Virus record (IMG/VR): IMGVR_UViG_3300025079_000037 | Coordinates: 1-20,251 of that record | Source: a virus | Reading direction: 5' to 3' (one strand) | DNA: 20,251 nt | In this document: one piece after another, positions 4,598 to 18,826 of the stretch | Layout: every line of letters begins with the position of its first letter | Position numbering within the stretch: position 1 is the first letter of the stretch | Made by a program: the position numbers and the translations under genes | Notes under the pieces: generated by a model | Told to the model about the DNA's origin: nothing | Databases searched by the model: none | Seen by the model: only the letters and a program-made list of their open reading frames with translations

Positions 4598-4828
4598 TTG
4601 AACAGATACAAGATCACCTACGTAAACTTTGACATGAAGGAAGGTGAGAGCTCTGTCGCATCGAAGTGGGCTCACGATGAGAAATCCGCAGTTAGGTTGC
4701 TTCTTGCAAAGAACCCAGACAAAAACGGGTATTGTGTGTTTAAGCGAGGAGGAAGCGGCAGGATTCTTAATGTAGAACAAGCTAGTTTTCTTGCTATTGA
4801 GCCGGTTCGTTCATCTGCCCGCGACTAA
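4598..4828 (+). CDS. Small protein of unknown function at the convergent junction (76 aa)
   Basis: I do not recognise the family. From TTG 4598 the protein begins MNRYKITYVNFD and continues with VASKWAHDEKSAVRLLLAKN and GYCVFKRGGSGRILNVE, a mixed alpha/beta pattern without membrane segments that reads like a compact fold beginning near NRYKI. Other possible starts are TTG 4577 (inside the structured element) and ATG 4634, which would remove the first predicted strand. No Shine-Dalgarno is seen at any of them, so the start is uncertain. Its last 35 bases overlap the end of the oppositely oriented 985-aa gene, which makes this the meeting point of early and late transcription. Confidence 0.55.
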   Translation: MNRYKITYVNFDMKEGESSVASKWAHDEKSAVRLLLAKNPDKNGYCVFKRGGSGRILNVEQASFLAIEPVRSSARD

Positions 4829-7751
4829 TAGCAGCTTTATCTTGCTCCATAGCTAGATTACCAAGGTTAGCTAATTCTTCTTGCAGGTAGACAGCCAGTT
4901 CTGGATGGTCTCTTGAGTATAAAGCTAAAGATTTTAATCCTTCGTCCGTAGCCATATAAAATGGTAGCCACTGTCTAAATACCATGGCAGCTTCGTCAGG
5001 TGTTTTTCTTGTTAGAATTTGTTTTAGACCTGGTGTAGCAGCAATTCTTCCATACAGGAATCGACCTATGTCTGGCAATAAATCCCCCATTACGAATGTT
5101 GTCTGCATTCCCCCCGATCCAGGTGAGATAACGGGTCTGACACCAGGTGCTTTTGCGGGCCGAGCAGTGCTATATTTTATTACTCTTGCTATTTCCTCCA
5201 TGTTATCGACCCATTGTTTGCCCAAAACTTCTATTGCAACTTTTCTGATCTTAACATCTTTTAATTTTGTTAGCATTATATCACCGTCAAACAATGGTTT
5301 TCCTCTGCTAGTAACTGGATAGTTAACTTTAGTGGGTCTAGCTAATTCTACGATCTCTGTAGATAGTTTATTTTGCAATGTAAGTATACCATATTCTGGC
5401 GAAGACTCTTGGATTACCTTTAGTAACGATGATATTTCATCGGAGCTGTAGTTAAGCAAAGAACCAACAGCTTCTACTGCATCTTCTGCTGACAGATTTC
5501 CTTGTTTTTTGATTATAGCTTGAAACAGTTTGTTTTGTTCTACCGTCGCTAGTTTAATAGCAGATTTTACTCTTTCTTCTGCTATTCTTAAAGCGTTCTT
5601 TGCTTGCGTCGGTGTACCCAGTTTAAGTATTTCTACAAAAATAGCATCGTCTAACTCAATAACTTTACCCGACGACTTAGCCAAATCGTTCAATCGGTCT
5701 ATTGCTGCTACTTTAATATCCCAGGTTTTACCAAATAGCTGACTCATAACGTCTCTATTGACATTAATCTTCATTCCTTTTCCTAATTTAATTGTTCCGT
5801 TAAGACCAAGTTCAGATATATAAGATGATTTAAGTAACTTTTCAGCTTCCGATTTGGTAAGAGTTCCAGCGGGTGCAGCATCTGGAAAAGTCTTTAAAAC
5901 TTCTCTGATTGTTTTTGGATCAGAAAGCACATATTTAAGCGTAGCTTCTGCCCCCATAACTTTATATGTTTCTGCTACGACATTTCCATTTCCACTACCA
6001 AAGTCTGGTTTTATTATAGGTTTTACGTTTGTTCTAAGAAACTGTCCGTATTTACCTCTGTAAAATTTATTGGCTTCCTTTAAGGCTTCTTTTGTCTTTG
6101 TGCTTTTTAATCCTTTGTCCCGAACTTTTGAAAGTTGTCTGAGCATAAGCCTGGAAAATCCAGCGGTTTCGCCTACCGCTGCTATTGCTCCAAAATCTGA
6201 TCTTTCCGCATACTTTTTAATAAGTGTATTTAACTGCTTGTAAGATAGGGTTTTGACTGCTTTAAAGTCTTTCATGCCACCCTTAAACTCTAGGGGTAGT
6301 TTTTCCCTTAATGCTTTTAATACAGCTTCGTCAGATAAACCAGATTTTTCCATAGACGTAGCAAAAGCTCTGGCAGCTATGCTTTCGTCTATTCCACTGC
6401 CACCCTCAGATATGGCTTTTCTAATAGCTTTTAAGACGGAATCTACGTCATAAAATATTCCTTCGTCAGTTGCTACTTGAGTTACCTTATCGAAAAGTCT
6501 TCTTTTTTCTACTCGAGCAGCTTGAAATTCTTTTTGTATTGAATTTTGAATTTTTCTACCAGCTGGTAAGCGACGATACAGACGCTCAGTTCCACCTATT
6601 TTCTTTAACTTAGTTTGCAATATTTTCTGCACTGCACCCTGCAATTGCGGATCAAATGATGCTACGTCGTCACTCAACTTTGTTAACATTTGGGTTAGTC
6701 TATCTCTAGCAACTTCTACCACCTCTTGTATGGGCTTTGGTGAACCACCATTAAGGGCGTTTATCATACCATCTACCTCATCAAGGTTGTTTTGATATAT
6801 CTTTCTAAGAGCAGGACTCATTGCACTAGCAGCTTGCTCCGTAGCAGCTCCGGCTCTGCTAGTTAGACCTCCAAGACCAGCCTGCAAGTTTGGAACTAAC
6901 TCAGTCCCGTCGTCTAAGACTTTAGTAAATGTAGTTTTTAAGCTTTGAAAGTCGGCTCGTAGCAGCTTTGCTACATCATCCGCGCCTGAACCAGCAAAGC
7001 CACTTAGCCATTGACCACCCCGGATCATTGCCATTTCGGGAACAAAAGCAAAAGCTGATTCTACCCCTCTTCGTTTAGCAATTTCCGCAAAATCAGGAAC
7101 GCTTCCGTCGTATGCTGCTACTGCGCTATCTTGTAGCATACCGGCTCCAAAGTATGATCCCGCAGAAACGGTTGCTAATGCAGCAGCTGAACCCCACCCA
7201 GCAACAGCTAGGGCAGGAAGCATGACTGGGGCTGCAACTGTAGCAATTGTAGCAGCGACTATAGGAATAGTAGCTCCAGCTGCAAACTGTGTAATATCAC
7301 CAAAATCTAAACCCTCTTCGTTTACATATTTGTATTTGGAGTTTTCACCTTCGCCTTCAGTCTTTATTATAAGCCTATAACTTCCATTTACTGGAACAGC
7401 TTGCACGTTTCTATAACCATATTCCATGCGAAGATGTTCAATCTTTTGATCCATAGTAGGTCTAAGACCCAACGCTAACCTGTCAGAGTCGCTTATGCCA
7501 CTGGTAGCATCTACATTTTCTATAGGAACTCGAAGCTGTAGTGCCGTATTTCTTTCAAGTCTTTTAACGGCAGTTAAATCGTCTACATCATTGCCGATGG
7601 CATCTTGTTTATAAGATCCATCTAATAATTCTTGACTAGCTTCGACAATAGATGCTCCTATTAGCTCTCTAGAAAGTGCAGGAGTTATGGGTCGATCTCC
7701 ATAGAATGCAAATTGATCTCCAGTTAAAGGGTCATTAACGTATACAGGCAT
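4794..7751 (-). CDS. Putative internal virion / DNA-ejection protein (985 aa)
   Basis: This is the last gene of the late block. The N-terminus (MPVYVNDPLTGDQFAFYGDR) is followed by a charged region and a long Ala/Gly-rich hydrophobic segment at about 155-207 (GATIPIVAATIATVAAPVML, AVAGWGSAAALATVSAGSYF) able to form membrane helices. The remaining 750 residues are largely helical and Lys/Glu/Ala-rich. No lysozyme, peptidase or fibre motif is visible. Large helical proteins with one buried hydrophobic patch, encoded beside tail genes, are typical of podovirus ejection proteins that leave the capsid and help form a channel through the envelope. The start directly follows the previous stop in TAATATG and no Shine-Dalgarno is seen. 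Virion origin is likely; the ejection role is inferred from context and composition. Confidence 0.6.
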   Translation of the reverse strand: MPVYVNDPLTGDQFAFYGDRPITPALSRELIGASIVEASQELLDGSYKQDAIGNDVDDLTAVKRLERNTALQLRVPIENVDATSGISDSDRLALGLRPTMDQKIEHLRMEYGYRNVQAVPVNGSYRLIIKTEGEGENSKYKYVNEEGLDFGDITQFAAGATIPIVAATIATVAAPVMLPALAVAGWGSAAALATVSAGSYFGAGMLQDSAVAAYDGSVPDFAEIAKRRGVESAFAFVPEMAMIRGGQWLSGFAGSGADDVAKLLRADFQSLKTTFTKVLDDGTELVPNLQAGLGGLTSRAGAATEQAASAMSPALRKIYQNNLDEVDGMINALNGGSPKPIQEVVEVARDRLTQMLTKLSDDVASFDPQLQGAVQKILQTKLKKIGGTERLYRRLPAGRKIQNSIQKEFQAARVEKRRLFDKVTQVATDEGIFYDVDSVLKAIRKAISEGGSGIDESIAARAFATSMEKSGLSDEAVLKALREKLPLEFKGGMKDFKAVKTLSYKQLNTLIKKYAERSDFGAIAAVGETAGFSRLMLRQLSKVRDKGLKSTKTKEALKEANKFYRGKYGQFLRTNVKPIIKPDFGSGNGNVVAETYKVMGAEATLKYVLSDPKTIREVLKTFPDAAPAGTLTKSEAEKLLKSSYISELGLNGTIKLGKGMKINVNRDVMSQLFGKTWDIKVAAIDRLNDLAKSSGKVIELDDAIFVEILKLGTPTQAKNALRIAEERVKSAIKLATVEQNKLFQAIIKKQGNLSAEDAVEAVGSLLNYSSDEISSLLKVIQESSPEYGILTLQNKLSTEIVELARPTKVNYPVTSRGKPLFDGDIMLTKLKDVKIRKVAIEVLGKQWVDNMEEIARVIKYSTARPAKAPGVRPVISPGSGGMQTTFVMGDLLPDIGRFLYGRIAATPGLKQILTRKTPDEAAMVFRQWLPFYMATDEGLKSLALYSRDHPELAVYLQEELANLGNLAMEQDKAAISRGQMNEPAQ

Positions 7752-9815: not shown

Positions 9816-12800
9816 TTAATCATCAAAGAAGAAGCCCCATACTGTATCCCATACAGCCACGGCTGTGTCAGCGGCGACTTCTACGACATCCATTGTAACT
9901 CCAGCAGTAGCTTTTACGACATCCACGGCTCCTCCGACGACAGCTCCTCCTGCACCAAGCGCAATATTACCGCCTGTAGATAGAGCGTCTTTACCTGCCC
10001 CAATAAGGGTTTGACCTAAATCTATTGTCCCATCCATTAAAGTATTCGCACCGCTAAGAATAGGGTTTGAACTGCTGCTCTGATTTTGGTTAATATTATA
10101 AGGTGTGTTAAGCCCATTGCCACCAGGATTGAGTAAGTTCCCAGTCATTGGGTCTACTGCAAAAATATCAGCGGGGCTTGAGTTGCCAGTAAGTAGATCT
10201 CCAGCATTGTTTGTTCCAAACGCACCATTAGCAAGAGAACTAGTGTAATCAATAACAGTTTCTGCCGCACCTGCTGCAGTGCCAAACGAGTTTATATTAA
10301 ACTGTGAGTTGGGATCGTAAGTAGTGGCGGGAAGAGGAGCAGTACCGAACGTGTTAGTATTAACAGGAACAGTAGCTGTAGTTACTGCTTGTGTGTTAGT
10401 ATTAACAGGAGTTTGTGTGTTAGTATTAACAGGAGCGGCAGTCTGTGCATTTTCGTTGCCTCCCGGTAACGCATCAACAGCTTTATTCCCAAATCCTGAT
10501 ACGGCAGTTGCCGCAGCTCCTACTGCATCGACAGCTCCCGCTCCAGGGATACCAACTTTTCTCATTGCGTCTGCAATGCCTCCAACTGCTCCACCGAAGC
10601 CACTTAATGTGTCGAGAACAGCCGTGGCTGTTTGTTTCCCAGTGTTAAACTGGTCAAGCACGTAGTTTACTTCTTCTAGGAGCGTTAGATCGTTATCCGC
10701 CTCTGCTTGTTTTCTTGCGTCTACAAGAGCTGCTTGAGCCCTAGCATTATCCAAGAAGTTTTGATTATTCTGATAATTTTGTTGAGCTGCACCTGCTGCA
10801 TCAACAGTGCCATATGGAGGACTAATTGTTCCAACACCTCTTTCGTAAGGGGAACTTCCAGCTCCTAGCAACAAATTAGGTATTTGGTCTGTAAAGTTAC
10901 GACTCATGTTGAAGGTGTTTCCACCTGCTACTTGAGCTCTTGCTTCTCGGTTTGCTCTAGCGTCCTCTGATCCAATAAGACGCTCGTAAAGCATACTAGG
11001 ATCTCTTTCTCTTCCTTGCAAAGCAGAGGTCTGGAAAGCGTCTTCTGTAATTTGAGCCTGCCTTGACTCGGAGAAGTTACCTTCCGCCTCATCATACAGT
11101 CGATTCGACATTGTATTTTGTTGCAGAAGTTGATTTGAAGCAATTGGGTCAGTGTTATACAACGCTGCTGCGTATTGTGGCCCGTAGTCTTGAAGCAGTC
11201 CCAAGTCATTGCCGCGCTGAATTTCTCTTAGATCATTTACTAGACCCTGTTCTTCTCCCGCGAGGGTAGCAGTCCTATCAAAAGCAAGTTTGTTAATCTG
11301 CCTTGTATACCTATCTATCAGGTTTTGTGCATCTACTTGAGCCAGTCCTCCGCCCTTGTATCTATTTGCAATTTCAGTTCCATAAATAACTTCTAGTAGA
11401 CCAAAGATAGGGTCATACGATTCACCGTATCCAACTTCTCCCGAGCCAGTTCCACCTGGGCCTCCTGTAGTAAATTGTGGGGGCAGGTTGAGATCTGCGT
11501 CGGTATAGGTAGGATCTCCAGTCGCATTAGTATTGATTACTGGGGTAGTAGAAGTTCCCGTTTCTGATGCACCTCCGTAAACTTGAGCATAAGCTTCTGT
11601 AATGGTCGCTCCTTCACCCAATAGCCTATTAAATTTAGCTTCTTGAGACTCACCTGTAATTACAGAATTATTATTTCCCGTTACATCAGCATTATTACCT
11701 GCGGTATTTTGGTCAGTTACTTGGGTATTTTGGTCAGTTACTTGGGTATTCTGATTATTACCTTGGGTATTATCTTTAGTTACAGTAGTTTTGTCGGGTT
11801 TTCGCGGATCTATAGATATAAACGTATCGTTTACCGAATCGTAAAACGTGCCAAATTGATCCTCTTGACGGTCGCTGAGATAAGTAATACCTTCTGCATT
11901 TGCTCGTTCTTCATTTGCTGTTATAGTTCCTGTTCCAGTAGTTCCATCTGTTCCAGAATTATTGTCAAATGAGACTCCAGTGTATTGCGACCATGCCGCA
12001 TACGCAGCCCGAGCAAAAGCCTCATTTCGAGACATTCCTTCCTCGTTCATCAATCTTACTGTTTCAGTTTCTATATATTCTCTATATTGAGGATCGTTAT
12101 CAAAATCGTCAAAACTAAGGTCGGTATTTGGCTCCGTTACCCCCGTCGTATTTATGTTATCTATGCTTACATGTATATCCCGAATTTCATCATAAAAAAT
12201 GCCAGATTCACCTTCTTTGCGTTCACTAAGGTTAGTAAATACTTCATCGGTTGGCCCCGTGTATAGTGTTCCGTCGGATGTCTCGTCGACGTACCAGCTT
12301 GTTGGGCCGGTATATTCAGGGTTAATATTCACTGTCATGCCCTTAGCTGCCATTTCAGCTACAGTAACAGTCCCGTCACGATTTGCATCTATCTTGTCAA
12401 ATTGCGCCCGAACAGCAGGTTCGATACTTGAATGGAGACCTCCATTCGCACTCCCACTATATCTTCGTTTAAAATCATCAAAACTTATTACTCCATCACG
12501 GTTTAGGTCTGCTTCCTTGAAGACCCCCGCACCGAGCGGCACGTCGGAGGGGTATATCCAATCGTAGCCCTGGAAGCCTCGACCGTCTTCTCTTGCCCCG
12601 TTAGCTATGCCTGTGTTTGCATTTCCACTTGCTGCCCCGTTAGCTATGCTTGTGTTTGCATTTGCCCCGCCAGCTATGCTTGTGTTGACATTTGCATTTG
12701 TATTTGTGCTTGTGCTGACATTTGCATTTGTATTAGCCAATGTAGTCTTTGCAGCATCCGCTGCAGCTAGAGCATTATCAATTGTTTTTTGGTCAATGCT

Positions 12801-15596
12801 ACCGCCACCGCTACTGACACTGCTACCGCCACCGCTACTGCCGCCACCGCTATTGTTGTTGTTGTTTTCTTGCTGTTCTCTTTGTTCATCCCGTTCTTCT
12901 TGTTCTCTCCTAGCGTTTGCAACATCGCTATTAGATGCGTTTGTGCTGGAGTCTTGAACTGTGTCAGGATGCCTTTCAACAGTATCATTAAAATTAGAAC
13001 GAGTGCTGGGGTCGTCAGGAACATTTGTAAAGCCACTACCAGGTTCATTGCTCTGAGTGTTTGTTACTCCACCATCATAATTTGGCTCGGTATAATTTCC
13101 ATCTTGGTCAAAAGTTCCGCCCTGTTCGTAACCTGCTTGAGCTCTGACTCCATCTTCATTTGCGTAAGCAGTGTATGGCTCTCCATTACTATCATACATA
13201 GTAATTTCATTGGGAGTCTCTTCGCTCCACTCATCGCCATAAGCAGGTGTCCACGTGTCATCATCGTTTAATCCTGGCCCTGTCTGACCCCAAGCCCCGT
13301 CGTCGGGATCCCAACCCATGTCTCTCAGTTCTTGCTCTGTAGGCCCTTCGCCACCATTGCCATCATCCTCACCTTGCCGATAGGTGCGCAGATAATAATC
13401 ATCTAGACTTTCACCCGGCAGCATATCATCTAACTGAGATTGAGTAGGCCCTCCATAATCCCCATCTCCATCGGGGTTATAGTCTTTCAGTGCCTGAGCC
13501 ATTCCTTCCGCTTCTAATCGTGCCTCTCTTTCTTCAGGTGACTCAAAAGGATTGTAGGGAGTGCCATCTTCATTACGCGGGCCGCTTCCATCGTCTACTA
13601 TATTACTGCCAAAATCAGCTGCTGCTGCTGCTGCACCCTCAGCCTCCATTTCAGCCCACTCAGCTGGTGTTAAATCTATACCCATTGAATCAAGCCAATC
13701 TTGACTAACACCTTCGCCACCGTTATTCCAGTCCCCATTTGCGTTTTGAGCATCTGCTCCCGCTTGCGCGTCCGCCATTGCCTCCGCTTCTAATCGTGTG
13801 TTTCTTTCCTCTTCTGACTCGAAGGGATTATAAGCAGTGCCATCTGCGTTACGCTGTCCGCTTCCGTCGTCTACTATATTACTGCCAAATCCTGATCCAT
13901 AGCGAGCCATGCGCCGGGCACGCGCCTCATCGCTCTCGCCACTACCGCCGCCGAACGCGCCACCCTTATCGCCTATAATATCAACTGAACCCCCAGGGAA
14001 CAGGTTATTGGCAGCATTAGTAAAATTATCTCCAGCATCATAGACTGATTGCAGATATTCATCTCGAGTTAGACCCTGCGTGGGAGGCAACATATTGCCA
14101 TCATCATCAAACTGAAGCGAACTATCATATACACTTCCATCAGCGTTATATAGCTCTTCAGCATTAGTATTACCACCATTTACTCGAGTTGGAAGCCCCT
14201 GTTCATTTACTATCTCTGGAAATTGTTCGTCGTAGTAATTGTCAATTTTTTTTACTAATTCTTCATATGTCTCAGGAACATCAGATGTCCTGTCTAGATA
14301 TTCTTGAAGCTGCTCTGGTGTTGCATTAAGAACATCCTCTGCAAGTTGGTTATAAGCAGCTTGTGTAATTAGCTCATTTTGAGCTGCAACTTCAGCTGGA
14401 GTTGGGTTTTCTCTGTCTTTTGGCCCAAATATTCCAAACGGGTTTGCAAGCACATCGCCTACGATGGGAATAGGCGTAATAACATTGTCGTAAAGGTTTT
14501 CTACAAGTTTGATTGGATTTGCAGCTAAATCTAAAATGTTAGCCATTCCCTCAACTGGAGCCGGCAGTTCTCCTGAAAGAATTGTCATATCCTGAAGTGT
14601 AAGTTCCTGACCTTCTGGAACTTTGTCCAGTAATCCAAAAATCCTATCTTCACTTAAAATATCTCTTACTTCTTGACCGTCCTTAGGAGTTAAAATATTG
14701 GAAAGATTTTTTAATGCTGGATAAATAAGAACTGATAGTGGAATTGCCGCTCCCCCTACGCTAAGATATCCTAAGCTTGAACTTTGGATTCCAAGCTTAA
14801 TTACGTTTTGAGCAACCTCACCTCCAAGATACTTTTTGTATACAAGGTTAATTTCTTTTGCAGTTTTATAAGCCCCTGTTCCAAGAGCCTTAGCAAACCC
14901 CGCAACTGCTTTTAAAGCACCCGCGTCGGTTTCTGCGTATTGTGGGTCTAAGCCTTGGCTTTCATAATACTGATTTATTTGTGCTTCACTTTGACCCAAT
15001 TCATTTTTAAGATAATCATTTACTACATTTTCGTTGCTAGTTGTAGATGTTAATGGCGAACCAAATCGCACTAAATTTACGTGCATTGGGTCAGCAGCCA
15101 TCTGTTGGATGAAACTTATGTTTGAAGTATCTTTAAGATCAAACTTGTTTGCGTTTGGCCCAAAAGCAGTTACAACATTAGATCCTATCTTTGCTTGAGC
15201 TTCGGTCAAAGTCCCATTCATTTGTGCAGCAAAAAGGGCAAGCTGCACCCCTCCAGCCATAAGTCCATTGCTGCCCTCAAGTTTATTTTGAAGTTGTTTT
15301 GGGACAAACGTCTCGTAACTTCTACTAATTAAATGACCAACGTGAGGCAAGTTTGCGAGCTCTGACCCAGCCCGACGCTCAAGCTCATTCATGGCAAAAT
15401 CATGAGCAGCTAATCCGTCTAATCCTCCATCGGTAAGGATGTTGACAATATTATTAAAAGACGTATCCCTGTTGGTTGTAACATCGTCTCTTGGGAAAAG
15501 TAAGTCGTCAATTGCTCCGCCAACGGAATCGGATAATTCTCGTCCTTCGGCAGTATTGCGGTAATTATGAAAATCGTATCTTTCTGAGCTAGTCAT
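9816..15596 (-). CDS. Giant mosaic virion protein with EF-hand pair and repeats (1926 aa)
   Basis: This is by far the largest gene (5.8 kb). Residues 1-470 are helical with one hydrophobic segment near 270-300 (LGYLSVGGAAIPLSVLIYPA). Residues of about 480-960 are acidic, Gly/Asn-rich and repetitive, including two 40-residue copies starting with FGSNIVDDGSG (near 568 and 661) and a GGGSSGGGSS linker. An Asn/Ala/Thr repeat tract follows. A paired EF-hand has loops D1030-D1041 and D1070-E1081. Two modules sharing an LSxRxExxxGxFYDxxxDxxxSID pattern lie near 1117 and 1237. YGPQYAAALYNTDP at 1471 and the helical region after it resemble large marine-phage internal virion proteins. The C-terminal 50 residues are Gly/Ala/Val-rich and end in WGFFFDD. 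A long flexible ejection or tail-associated protein is the best reading. Confidence 0.6.
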   Translation of the reverse strand: MTSSERYDFHNYRNTAEGRELSDSVGGAIDDLLFPRDDVTTNRDTSFNNIVNILTDGGLDGLAAHDFAMNELERRAGSELANLPHVGHLISRSYETFVPKQLQNKLEGSNGLMAGGVQLALFAAQMNGTLTEAQAKIGSNVVTAFGPNANKFDLKDTSNISFIQQMAADPMHVNLVRFGSPLTSTTSNENVVNDYLKNELGQSEAQINQYYESQGLDPQYAETDAGALKAVAGFAKALGTGAYKTAKEINLVYKKYLGGEVAQNVIKLGIQSSSLGYLSVGGAAIPLSVLIYPALKNLSNILTPKDGQEVRDILSEDRIFGLLDKVPEGQELTLQDMTILSGELPAPVEGMANILDLAANPIKLVENLYDNVITPIPIVGDVLANPFGIFGPKDRENPTPAEVAAQNELITQAAYNQLAEDVLNATPEQLQEYLDRTSDVPETYEELVKKIDNYYDEQFPEIVNEQGLPTRVNGGNTNAEELYNADGSVYDSSLQFDDDGNMLPPTQGLTRDEYLQSVYDAGDNFTNAANNLFPGGSVDIIGDKGGAFGGGSGESDEARARRMARYGSGFGSNIVDDGSGQRNADGTAYNPFESEEERNTRLEAEAMADAQAGADAQNANGDWNNGGEGVSQDWLDSMGIDLTPAEWAEMEAEGAAAAAADFGSNIVDDGSGPRNEDGTPYNPFESPEEREARLEAEGMAQALKDYNPDGDGDYGGPTQSQLDDMLPGESLDDYYLRTYRQGEDDGNGGEGPTEQELRDMGWDPDDGAWGQTGPGLNDDDTWTPAYGDEWSEETPNEITMYDSNGEPYTAYANEDGVRAQAGYEQGGTFDQDGNYTEPNYDGGVTNTQSNEPGSGFTNVPDDPSTRSNFNDTVERHPDTVQDSSTNASNSDVANARREQEERDEQREQQENNNNNSGGGSSGGGSSVSSGGGSIDQKTIDNALAAADAAKTTLANTNANVSTSTNTNANVNTSIAGGANANTSIANGAASGNANTGIANGAREDGRGFQGYDWIYPSDVPLGAGVFKEADLNRDGVISFDDFKRRYSGSANGGLHSSIEPAVRAQFDKIDANRDGTVTVAEMAAKGMTVNINPEYTGPTSWYVDETSDGTLYTGPTDEVFTNLSERKEGESGIFYDEIRDIHVSIDNINTTGVTEPNTDLSFDDFDNDPQYREYIETETVRLMNEEGMSRNEAFARAAYAAWSQYTGVSFDNNSGTDGTTGTGTITANEERANAEGITYLSDRQEDQFGTFYDSVNDTFISIDPRKPDKTTVTKDNTQGNNQNTQVTDQNTQVTDQNTAGNNADVTGNNNSVITGESQEAKFNRLLGEGATITEAYAQVYGGASETGTSTTPVINTNATGDPTYTDADLNLPPQFTTGGPGGTGSGEVGYGESYDPIFGLLEVIYGTEIANRYKGGGLAQVDAQNLIDRYTRQINKLAFDRTATLAGEEQGLVNDLREIQRGNDLGLLQDYGPQYAAALYNTDPIASNQLLQQNTMSNRLYDEAEGNFSESRQAQITEDAFQTSALQGRERDPSMLYERLIGSEDARANREARAQVAGGNTFNMSRNFTDQIPNLLLGAGSSPYERGVGTISPPYGTVDAAGAAQQNYQNNQNFLDNARAQAALVDARKQAEADNDLTLLEEVNYVLDQFNTGKQTATAVLDTLSGFGGAVGGIADAMRKVGIPGAGAVDAVGAAATAVSGFGNKAVDALPGGNENAQTAAPVNTNTQTPVNTNTQAVTTATVPVNTNTFGTAPLPATTYDPNSQFNINSFGTAAGAAETVIDYTSSLANGAFGTNNAGDLLTGNSSPADIFAVDPMTGNLLNPGGNGLNTPYNINQNQSSSSNPILSGANTLMDGTIDLGQTLIGAGKDALSTGGNIALGAGGAVVGGAVDVVKATAGVTMDVVEVAADTAVAVWDTVWGFFFDD
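10351..10434 (-). repeat. Three exact 18-bp repeats encoding PVNTNT
   Basis: GTGTTAGTATTAACAGGA occurs at 10351-10368, 10393-10410 and 10417-10434 (plus-strand reading). On the coding strand it encodes Pro-Val-Asn-Thr-Asn-Thr in the giant virion gene. Identity at the base level, including third codon positions, points to recent duplication or gene conversion and not to protein-level convergence. Confidence 0.8.
11703..11765 (-). repeat. 21-bp tandem repeat encoding QVTDQNT heptads
   Basis: A 21-base unit is repeated exactly at 11703-11723 and 11724-11744, with a diverged third copy at 11745-11765. It encodes a seven-residue Gln/Val/Thr/Asp/Asn unit in the giant virion gene. The exact pair suggests recent slippage and probable length variation among relatives. 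Confidence 0.8.
12596..12693 (-). repeat. Three 29-bp repeats encoding an Asn/Ala/Thr tract
   Basis: Near-identical 29-base copies lie at 12596-12624, 12635-12663 and 12665-12693, the first two differing at one base. They encode repeats of the type NANTSIANGA just before the EF-hand region of the giant virion protein. Shorter Asn/Thr/Ser repeats continue to about 12760. The tract is low-complexity and probably a flexible spacer. Confidence 0.7.
13490..13893 (-). repeat. Duplicated ~40-residue module in the giant virion gene
   Basis: Two copies of a module of about 40 codons lie at roughly 13490-13614 and 13773-13893. Both begin FGSNIVDDGSG and continue with a YNPFES then E/R-rich and RLEAE segment; a stretch of more than 20 bases around TACTATATTACTGCCAAA is identical in the two. 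The copies are about 93 residues apart. Between and after them a shorter degenerate motif with an L-D/R-D/S-M core occurs three times (SQDWLDSMG, SQLDDML, EQELRDMG). Confidence 0.7.
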
Positions 15597-15614: not shown

Positions 15615-16694
15615 TTAAGAAACGGTTCCTAGTGATAGTGATTTAATCGTTCCAGCATCGTTAAAATGCAGTGTAACTGCATCTGATGTGTCTTTTTGAA
15701 TGGTATACATTCCGCGAGATAATGCTCCAAGCACTTCAGCACCAGAAGTTGCTCCTCCATCAGTTGGTATCGTGTCAGAATTGTTTATTGTAAAAGCAAC
15801 CTGACCAGTTTCTTGCATATTTAAAGCAGCGTTTCTTTTGCCTGAGCCAAACTCATTCCACTTTCCTATTTCTACTACATTTTTACCACCAGTTTGTTGC
15901 TGAATATTTGCACCAATAACAGTGCCATACATATAACTAACTTTAGTGTTGTAACCAAAACACGATGCAAATCCACCACCAGCATTGTTACCAAATCCAA
16001 CAGCCGTGTTTTCTGAATCTCCAGAACTCCCAGCTGAACAGCTTATACCTGCCGCAAAACTTCGCGCTCCTACAAGTGCTTCCCCATCTGCACTACATTG
16101 CCTTCCGATTGCTACACAACCTGCTTTGGCAATAACATTTTGTCCTATGGCTACTGCCCTCCCGGTTTCACCCTCGCTGGAAGGAGCACTTGACGCAAAT
16201 GCTTCATATCCAATTGCTATGGCTTTTGCTCCAGTAGCTGTAGCCTTATGTCCCATTGCTACTGAATATTCATCTGTTACACCTCCCGCTGATCCTGCCG
16301 TTGATCCATACCCATAAGCAACTGATTGTAATCCCTCCGCCTTAACATCATTTCCAACTGCTACTGATGATTCTCCCCGGGCAACATAGGCAGAACTTAC
16401 TTGGGTTGTGGTTAAAGTTAATGAATTGGCTCCATATGAACTAGCTGAATTTTGAAGTCCACCAACATATGCAGTTCCAATATTTTGAATAACTCCCCTC
16501 AACTTAGGTTGTTCAAGTTTATTAGTAGTAATACCACCGTCCCGAACAATTATTGCTCCCGAGGCAAGTTGCGTAGTTGCTCCGTCAACAACTGCGGATG
16601 TAAACGTAGCTTTCTTTACTAAATCGTTGAGATTTGTAGAAGTTACAGTGTCTTGATCCTCGTAAGGAGTTTGGATTGATAGTATGTCTGACAT
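15615..16694 (-). CDS. Trimeric tail fibre with YadA-like head repeats (359 aa)
   Basis: Residues of about 105-265 are a series of imperfect 14-residue repeats of the type SVAVGxxxxAxGxxS (ESSVAVGNDVKAEGLQSVAYG, EYSVAMGHKATATGAKAIAIG, GRAVAIGQNVIAKAGCVAIG). This is the left-handed beta-roll of trimeric autotransporter heads such as YadA, which many phage fibres share. The N-terminus has the SAVVDGATTQLASGAIIVRDGGITTNKL stretch seen in phage fibre shafts, and would attach to the tail. The C-terminal 80 residues end in a beta-rich segment with HFNDAGTIKSLSLG and no chaperone domain. Host receptor binding is the likely job. The ATG overlaps the upstream stop in TAATG, which couples it to the 710-aa tail gene. 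Confidence 0.8.
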   Translation of the reverse strand: MSDILSIQTPYEDQDTVTSTNLNDLVKKATFTSAVVDGATTQLASGAIIVRDGGITTNKLEQPKLRGVIQNIGTAYVGGLQNSASSYGANSLTLTTTQVSSAYVARGESSVAVGNDVKAEGLQSVAYGYGSTAGSAGGVTDEYSVAMGHKATATGAKAIAIGYEAFASSAPSSEGETGRAVAIGQNVIAKAGCVAIGRQCSADGEALVGARSFAAGISCSAGSSGDSENTAVGFGNNAGGGFASCFGYNTKVSYMYGTVIGANIQQQTGGKNVVEIGKWNEFGSGKRNAALNMQETGQVAFTINNSDTIPTDGGATSGAEVLGALSRGMYTIQKDTSDAVTLHFNDAGTIKSLSLGTVS

Positions 16695-18826
16695 TATATT
16701 GCTGTGTTTGTGGAGTTAAATGATACGCCCCCAGATGTTTTAATTGATTTTATCCTAGGTCTTCCAGAGAAATTATTTAAAGTAAACTGAATAGAGTAAG
16801 CTCTACTATTACCTATTCTACCACGGATGGATACATCTTCATTTATTGCTAGTGGATTATTGTTTAATCTAGAAGATAAACTCCCTAATTGTAAGTTGTA
16901 ATCTATGTTTTTTGTTTCTGCTGAAATGTTAAAATCAGACTTTTCTACGCTGGAAGACTGAACTTGCATCTCAAAAGTGTTCCACTTTTTTCTGTCAGTC
17001 GTCCCAAGGGTAAAATCTCTAGTCGTTAAGCTGGACTCAATAGGCTGCGTTGTAACTAAATTTGAAGCTGAAGGATCGACAGAAATTCTATCATTTCCGT
17101 CACTTCTGCTTTCTAGCAAATGAACTCCACCAAATGAATTTATACAATATACTCCTCGTTTTTCTCCATCCCCGGCAATGATTAATTTTTCAAAATCAAA
17201 AGATGAAACTGAATCAATAGATTCCCATTGTTTGTTTATAAAATTATAAACTATAATTGCATTGTTGTTTGAAGCAGTAACAAGGTTACCTTCGCTATCA
17301 AGGGAATTTAGGGGAACGGCAATGTAATATTTGTTATCAAAATATACAGCAGAAGAGTTTTGCCATAGATCCCTATTTATTGATTTAATTGTGCCGTCGA
17401 TTGCTTCACTCAAAGGAACTTCATTGCCTCGAAGATTATATAAATCTTGGAAAGAAGCCCCGTATATTCCGCTGTCGGACAAGAAAAACAAATTACTTCC
17501 TACTTGAACTATGCTGTCTTTTGCTACGCATCCTATTTCTCCAGTAACAAGACTTGTTACTGCCTGAGATATATTTATAGTGCTAGTAATCGTATGGATG
17601 CTATTTCGATTAAATATTAATAATTGATCGTCAGAAAAAGAATGAAGACCTACAATAAAATCAGCGGTTCCCGCAGTTAATTGTTTTGTGTTAGGAACAT
17701 CGTCATAAGTGTTAATGTCTAGTCCGTTAGAAAAAATTACTTCATCTTTAGTTTCCCTGTCGGAGTAAGTTTCTTGAGTGCTTTCTACCGTATATTCGTA
17801 GGGAACGACTAGCCTTCCACCGTGATAAGTTCCAAACGGGGGAGCTGGCATACGCACGTATCCTACACCTTGAGATACTGGTTTTGTGAAATGAGCTTCG
17901 GTGTCTGAAGAATCATTTTTTTCTGCAAGAAACGCAAATCCGTTAACACTAGCAACAAATGAAACAAAATATTTTTCACCCGTAATCAATGTAGTTGATC
18001 CAGGGTCTACGACAACTATCTCATCTCCTACTTTAAGACCATGATTAGTTGATACTACCGAAACAACATTATTTGTTATTACTGTATTATTTACAAGAGG
18101 ATTTCCAAGTCTTTCGGGTTGTTCGTAAGTTCCACTTTTTACTTTCGTAAATCCAGAAAATGCAGTTCCAGTTCCAGTCCCTGCTGCGGATGCAGTAAAA
18201 ATTTCACCTACCGTTGGAGTTGCGGAGGCTCCTACATTTGCCCAGACCGTGTCTCCTATTGAATCAATTTTATAAGTTTTCCCAACATCAAACTTGTCAA
18301 CGGTTACAGAAGTAACAACTCCATCCCAAACTAAAGAGGTTTTTCCTCCTATAAAAAGAATTACTTGCCTGAATGCTTGAGTTAAACTGGACAATCTTCC
18401 CAATGTGTAAGACGGAGGATAAGCGACTTTTACCGCTGTGCTAGTATCAAGATTGCTTGCGATTGCTTCGGTGTTTTGAGCGGTAACAATATACTGGCTA
18501 GAAGTTTCGTTTGGGTTAGAGTAAGCACAAGAGGCCCAAATTCTAGGCTGTGCATTATTATTTATTACTGGAGCAGTGCCAGTGTCATCTAATAAAAAAT
18601 TAAGAACTACCCCAGTGGTTCCAGAAATTAATTCACTAGTAATGTTTTCAATGCCTTTTCTGACTTGCCATTCGCCATTTAGATCCATTCTGCCGTTGCG
18701 AGAGTCCGCAAGGACACCCGGCTTCAACTGATCGGGTCGAAACCTATTATTAAAGCCAAAGTATCCAGTGTCGAACTCGTCGGCAATCTTGGAATCATTT
18801 GCTCCGTATCCAGAATATCGTGGCAT
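16694..18826 (-). CDS. Tail protein, beta-propeller/stabilisation type (710 aa)
   Basis: The start, with GYFGFNNRFRPDQLKPGVLADSRNGRMDLNGEWQVRKGI, matches the opening pattern (RPxxLxxGxxxxxxNxRxxxxGxxxxRKG) of large beta-rich phage tail proteins often called stabilisation, nozzle or tail-tube-associated. The remainder is beta-strand-rich with blade-like repeats such as DDQLLIFNRNSIHTI, SNLFFLSDSGIYGA and NAIIVYNFINKQWESID. Residues of about 174-224 are a short insert (FDVGKTYKIDSIGDTVW, then GEIFTASAAGTGTGTAF) of a type scattered through many phage virion proteins. It most likely closes or extends the tail just behind the fibre encoded next. A 12-base gap separates it from the 34-aa gene upstream. 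The exact tail position is inferred. Confidence 0.7.
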   Translation of the reverse strand: MPRYSGYGANDSKIADEFDTGYFGFNNRFRPDQLKPGVLADSRNGRMDLNGEWQVRKGIENITSELISGTTGVVLNFLLDDTGTAPVINNNAQPRIWASCAYSNPNETSSQYIVTAQNTEAIASNLDTSTAVKVAYPPSYTLGRLSSLTQAFRQVILFIGGKTSLVWDGVVTSVTVDKFDVGKTYKIDSIGDTVWANVGASATPTVGEIFTASAAGTGTGTAFSGFTKVKSGTYEQPERLGNPLVNNTVITNNVVSVVSTNHGLKVGDEIVVVDPGSTTLITGEKYFVSFVASVNGFAFLAEKNDSSDTEAHFTKPVSQGVGYVRMPAPPFGTYHGGRLVVPYEYTVESTQETYSDRETKDEVIFSNGLDINTYDDVPNTKQLTAGTADFIVGLHSFSDDQLLIFNRNSIHTITSTINISQAVTSLVTGEIGCVAKDSIVQVGSNLFFLSDSGIYGASFQDLYNLRGNEVPLSEAIDGTIKSINRDLWQNSSAVYFDNKYYIAVPLNSLDSEGNLVTASNNNAIIVYNFINKQWESIDSVSSFDFEKLIIAGDGEKRGVYCINSFGGVHLLESRSDGNDRISVDPSASNLVTTQPIESSLTTRDFTLGTTDRKKWNTFEMQVQSSSVEKSDFNISAETKNIDYNLQLGSLSSRLNNNPLAINEDVSIRGRIGNSRAYSIQFTLNNFSGRPRIKSIKTSGGVSFNSTNTAI

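Follow-up and report, generated by a model that had tools for sequence, protein, structure and literature searches.

The middle of the giant protein P0001, encoded on the minus strand of the window (i.e., the whole 20,251-nucleotide stretch of viral DNA analysed here), carries a genuine two-EF-hand domain resembling a lobe of calmodulin, as far as sequence and prediction go. In the reading that we favour and regard as fairly probable, the pair acts as a lineage-specific folding node that Ca2+ stabilises, placed in the acidic, disordered linker of what is probably an ejection protein. As a domain, it is a further case of a known EF-hand type; what most deserves following is that EF-hands turn up repeatedly in phage proteins that are ejected. 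The features discussed below are listed in Table 1.

Table 1. Positions of P0001, its domains and the neighbouring genes of the structural block in the window
Feature	Position	Strand	Basis and remarks
P0002, 985 aa, last gene of the structural block	4794..7751	-	No PHROG match, no significant PDB match
P0003, 680 aa, large co-oriented gene adjoining P0001	7753..9795	-	No PHROG or PDB match
P0001, 1926 aa, 204 kDa, pI 4.08; probable virion (ejection) protein	9816..15596	-	Uninterrupted ORF, composition, relatives, synteny with C75C1
P0001, conserved C-terminal domain, residues 1395-1616	10749..11414	-	Homologue also in C75C1
P0001, EF-hand pair domain, residues 1008-1085	12342..12575	-	Pfam, PDB sequence matches, AlphaFold2 and fold comparison, conservation in L002/L003
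P0001, EF loop 2, DANRDGTVTVAE	12354..12389	-	PROSITE-type pattern; fully canonical here and in L002/L003
P0001, EF loop 1, DLNRDGVISFDD	12474..12509	-	PROSITE-type pattern; position 12 is Asp here, Asn in L002/L003
P0001, acidic low-complexity linker before the EF domain, residues 471-1004	12585..14186	-	Charge; length varies among relatives
P0001, conserved N-terminal domain, residues 1-470	14187..15596	-	Identity 78% to L002, 62% to L011; dN/dS about 0.5
P0004, fibre-like, YadA-head repeats	15615..16694	-	Pfam YadA_head 1.5e-9; slot of the C75C1 tail fibre
P0005, nozzle/head-closure (Hc3)-like	16694..18826	-	Upstream of P0001; PHROG about 1e-4; 36% identical to C75C1 head closure

The giant protein and its genomic setting

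The minus-strand genes follow the order P0005, P0004, P0001, P0003 and P0002, and the plus strand carries a replication module of endonuclease VII, Erf, exonuclease and DnaB helicase. Among 50,697 phage records, the only one matching P0001 was phage C75C1 (OQ984151, 39.5 kb), the layout of which is that of the window: an Hc3 head closure gene, a tail fibre gene, a giant gene, two large genes and DnaB on the opposite strand. The giant gene of C75C1 (WJE88192.1) encodes 2769 residues, and its C-terminal domain is 26.9% identical to that of P0001. C75C1 is unclassified, its record gives no host, and a literature search retrieved no paper on it. Since this single unclassified phage was the only relative at the giant protein in the collection, the window apparently represents an undescribed group of phages. 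P0004, the protein with the YadA-head adhesin repeats, had no counterpart in the phage collection.

Gene order and synteny with C75C1 make P0001 a probable virion protein and thus support the sequence-only reading, made earlier from this DNA, in which the EF-hands were assigned to a giant phage virion protein. In short-tailed phages of the T7 type, large genes at this place typically encode ejection proteins. By analogy with them, P0001 would most likely be the first in a set of three large ejection proteins, the phage being uncultured and podovirus-like. PHROG, PDB-profile and fold searches identified none of P0001, P0002 and P0003 as an ejection protein.

P0001, with a computed net charge of about -178, consists of conserved N- and C-terminal domains separated by an acidic linker that is rich in Gly, Asn, Ser and Thr and variable in length. 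Through most of residues 451-950 the linker has a net charge of -4 to -13 per 50 residues. The EF-hand pair is situated in this linker downstream of both a Gly-Ser run and an Ala/Asn/Thr-rich stretch, and the low-complexity surroundings described in the earlier reading are indeed there. The linkers also contain in-frame short tandem repeats at 11695-11771, 10389-10435, 12633-12734 and 12798-12842 (units of 21, 24, 30 and 12 bases, respectively), and the corresponding linker of the relative L011 has a long poly-Gly run. The C-terminal domain was predicted to be mostly helical at low confidence, its model being too poor to interpret. In genome contigs no host relative of the C-terminal domain was found, and the sole EF-hand match of the EF domain came from one member of Myxococcota.

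Identity of the EF-hand pair

Loop 1 (residues 1030-1041) and loop 2 (residues 1070-1081) are spaced by 40 residues, and both match the consensus D-x-[DNS]-x-[DNS]-G-x-[ILV]-x-x-x-[DE]. Upon re-reading of P0001, the two loops proposed from the sequence alone proved exact in their residue numbers, spacing and position 12 (Asp in loop 1, Glu in loop 2); the nucleotide span given for them, 12363-12518, was 9 bases off, the true span being 12354-12509 on the minus strand. These loops were the only PROSITE-type EF-hand matches among the nine window proteins examined. Shuffling of the whole protein produced 0.009 single loops per shuffle, and no pair of loops 25-60 residues apart appeared in 20,000 shuffles; a chance motif was rejected on these grounds.

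The loops lie within low-complexity, Asp- and Asn-rich sequence, and this composition is what could favour the view that the domain is not an EF-hand at all, the motif being due to chance or belonging to a different DxDxDG domain (dockerin or lanmodulin, for instance). The shuffles without a pair speak against this view, as do four Pfam EF-hand models that recognized P0001 above their curated cut-offs: EF-hand_5 (8.4e-11; 41.3 bits, cut-off 25.9), EF-hand_1 (2.5e-8; 33.3 bits, cut-off 25.4), the 'pair' model EF-hand_7 (2.1e-7; 31.6 bits, cut-off 30) and EF-hand_6 (2.3e-6). Dockerin type I was sought both as a profile match and as a loop plus F helix without an E helix; since no dockerin profile was matched at E-values of up to 1 and an E helix is predicted for each loop, the domain is not a dockerin. 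In lanmodulin, loop position 2 is Pro and the loops follow one another at 12-13 residues; this reading was rejected, as P0001 has Leu and Ala at that position and loop starts 40 residues apart. Considering these facts, we regard a non-EF-hand identity of the domain as highly improbable.

A phmmer search of PDB returned the calcium-binding proteins KChIP, Entamoeba CaBP, CaBP4, calcyphosin and calmodulin (best E-value 6.9e-6). The AlphaFold2 model, built on an alignment with three rows only and having a pLDDT of about 70-85 over most of the domain, predicts helix-loop-strand-helix twice (H-E-H, H-E-H), with both E helices present. Foldseek placed this model on calmodulin lobes with a probability of up to 1.0, at an E-value of only 0.03 (all its E-values for the model were above 0.001), and in VIA-align 2 the model matched a calmodulin lobe with a Z-score of 7.2 over 61 residues at 2.6 A. 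The BFVD fold search gave weak matches only, of which the top ones were EF-hand proteins of giant viruses and an entomopoxvirus. Thus, the EF-hand pair claimed by the sequence-only reading was borne out by family profiles, by sequence matches in PDB and by the predicted fold, the checks by profile and by structure prediction being among those it had proposed.

Distribution, rate of change and possible function

L001 shows no difference from the window over the part that it covers. In L002, which spans the full length of the protein, and L003, the proteins of which share 99.5% identity, both EF-hands occupy the corresponding position; their loops are DQDGDGSITFDN and DANGDGIVTRGE. Their EF domain is 43% identical to that of the window, the calcium-ligand positions being mostly kept. 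Position 12 of loop 1 is Asn in both, which leaves loop 2 as the one loop that is canonical in the lineage of the window and in theirs alike. L011 likewise spans the full length of the protein and shares its N- and C-terminal domains, but it contains no EF-hand, and none was detected with Pfam EF-hand_5 on its whole 35-kb record. EF-hands are also absent from C75C1 and the C75C1-like loci L014 and L015, as well as from the part of the gene covered in L013. In the other close relatives, the contigs stop short of the linker or start only past it, and three further scans for relatives spanning the linker found none beyond L001, L002, L003 and L011.

The EF domain is therefore present in two lineages and absent from one close lineage. 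Absence of the loops from close relatives had been named beforehand as grounds for rejecting the pair. On this point the outcome is mixed: the pair is kept in L002/L003 and missing from L011 and C75C1, which means that it cannot be essential to the basic job of the protein family. A tblastn search for EF-hand pairs in the 50,697 phage records found none, which is no evidence of rarity, because the search was insensitive (a plasmid control gave only 8 weak hits). With the L002 EF domain as a query, tblastn gave one weak match (E 0.5).

Between the window and L002, identity amounts to 78% in the N-terminal domain (dN 0.14, dS 0.30), 70% in the linker preceding the EF domain, 43% in the EF domain itself (12342-12575 vs L002:4711-4980; dN 0.47, dS 0.48), 29% in the linker after it, where the alignment is doubtful, and 75% in the C-terminal domain. 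Constraint on the EF domain is thus much weaker than on the folded parts of the protein, yet the ligand positions are mostly retained; with two lineages, a dN close to dS over the EF domain is compatible with relaxed constraint as well as with diversifying selection.

Such a rate of change, together with the absence of the domain from L011 and the lack of the normal residue at position 12 of loop 1, would suit a decaying or near-neutral passenger domain that was acquired by chance in a tolerant linker and has no selected function. We consider this unlikely, as loop 2 and most of the ligands were kept at an overall identity of 43%, whereas a functionless domain would lose its ligands as fast as other positions. 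The faster change of the EF domain in comparison with the N- and C-terminal domains could also reflect a partner. In that case the Ca2+-loaded pair would grip a helix of a virion or host protein in the manner of a calmodulin lobe, which its predicted fold resembles. L002 and L003 differ at 14 codons; three of these lie in the EF domain, helix E2 included, and are counted in favour of such binding. Against such a module stand the lack of a known partner, a rate comparison drawn from two lineages and a clustering of L002/L003 differences that amounts to three codons, and we give it little weight.

The folding-node reading builds on the sequence, family and predicted fold of the pair, on the ligand positions mostly kept in L002/L003, on the very acidic linker and on the gene order shared with C75C1. 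Points against it are the absence of the pair from L011 and C75C1, the degenerate loop 1 of L002/L003, the near equality of dN and dS over the EF domain, the three-row alignment and modest Foldseek E-values behind the model, and the negative searches for ejection-protein matches of P0001, P0002 and P0003. Judging by its residues, loop 2 would bind Ca2+ with normal EF-hand chemistry. Asp or Asn at EF position 12 lowers the affinity for Ca2+ or shifts it towards Mg2+, and loop 1, with Asp here and Asn in the relatives, is probably a weaker or Mg2+-tolerant partner site. If P0001 is carried in the virion, the EF domain would be folded in Ca2+-rich medium, compacting or stiffening one point of the floppy polyanionic chain, and, once ejected, would loosen at the Ca2+ level of the cytoplasm. 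Besides stiffening, the sequence-only reading proposed a trigger that might sense seawater calcium outside the cell against low calcium inside: loaded with Ca2+ outside the cell, the pair would lose it in the cytoplasm, and the unfolding would drive or time ejection. The occurrence of an EF-hand pair in a probable ejected protein agrees with this proposal, as do the EF-hands in tape measure proteins (see below), which other phages eject. However, the close relative L011 and C75C1 do without the domain, and loop 1 is weak in both lineages that carry the pair; both points argue against a trigger being essential to the P0001 family, and we doubt that the pair acts in this way. To us the EF domain has the look of a module that is optional and folds in a calcium-dependent manner, and not of an established trigger of infection.

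EF-hands in other phage proteins and comparison with known systems

Viral contigs were surveyed with a DNA pattern for F-D-x-I-D-x-[DN]-x-D-G-x-I, which was matched by 41 loci. EF-hands were thereby found in tail tape measure proteins, as assigned by PHROG, at L026:6803-10975, L034:1-4911, L061:725-6400 and L064:4088-8401, where they occupy mostly the last third of the protein and match Pfam EF-hand_7 with E-values as low as 6.8e-23. In L026, L034 and L064, the neighbouring loops of a pair are spaced by 33 or 36 residues. The partial locus L053 has one loop that fits the pattern, in an ORF similar to L026 on visual inspection, and gp77 of EBPR siphovirus 2, annotated as 'similar to tail protein', matches the EF region of L034 (E 4e-9).

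Low-complexity large proteins beside nozzle-type genes were encountered at L040:256-3066 (the same protein in L024 and L044) and L047:3-2195; each has one EF-type loop, and Pfam recognized none of them at 1e-3. Neither the C-terminal domain of P0001 nor the protein P0002 had detectable homology to the structural cassette of L040. Closely spaced EF-type loops (2-4 loops, 20-26 residues apart) were seen in L025/L042 (303-aa ORF), L037/L038/L045 (617-621 aa), L056 (504 aa) and L032 (984 aa), and those of these ORFs that were tested fell into no PHROG family.

In the literature, the putative structural proteins of phage TP-84 were screened for the EF-hand signature because its virion falls apart with EDTA, and none was found (PMC5889276), and phage phiAC-1 has a predicted EF-hand protein with no stated role (PMC5795418). 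Our literature search, which covered few subscription journals, returned nothing on EF-hands in proteins of the ejection or tape measure kind.

Considered jointly, the podoviral giant protein and the siphoviral tape measure proteins invite a broader reading, in which EF pairs are recurrent, independently acquired calcium sensors in ejected phage proteins. The pairs would be folded where Ca2+ is plentiful (medium or periplasm) and loose in the cytoplasm, helping in this way to set the timing or direction of protein and DNA passage. We put this forward as a speculation with a small chance of being right. Many phages need Ca2+ for infection, and, to our knowledge, the Ca2+ sites in phages are mostly unknown. 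The pair of P0001 and the EF-hands of the tape measure proteins offer concrete residues for testing the action of calcium on ejected proteins.

With the lobes of calmodulin and neuronal calcium sensors (EF-hand_7/EF-hand_5) the pair of P0001 shares the loop consensus, the paired helix-loop-strand-helix arrangement and the predicted lobe fold. Unlike a standard EF-hand pair, it has no Glu at position 12 of loop 1 and is embedded in a disordered linker of a giant phage protein, and its 40-residue spacing differs from the 33-36 residues of the other phage pairs found here. The tape measure proteins of L026, L034, L061 and L064 have in common with P0001 the presence of EF-hands in a very long phage virion protein; they belong to long-tailed phages, carry two to several loops, mostly in the last third, and display no other homology to P0001. 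The giant protein of C75C1 shares with P0001 the gene slot, the neighbours and a homologous C-terminal domain, but it lacks EF-hands and has a coiled-coil and repeat-rich middle. The likeness to the ejection proteins of T7-type phages is by analogy only, no sequence, profile or fold match to P0001, P0002 or P0003 having been found; it consists in the slot after a nozzle-like gene within the structural block, and in a block of large co-oriented genes preceding a replication module on the other strand.
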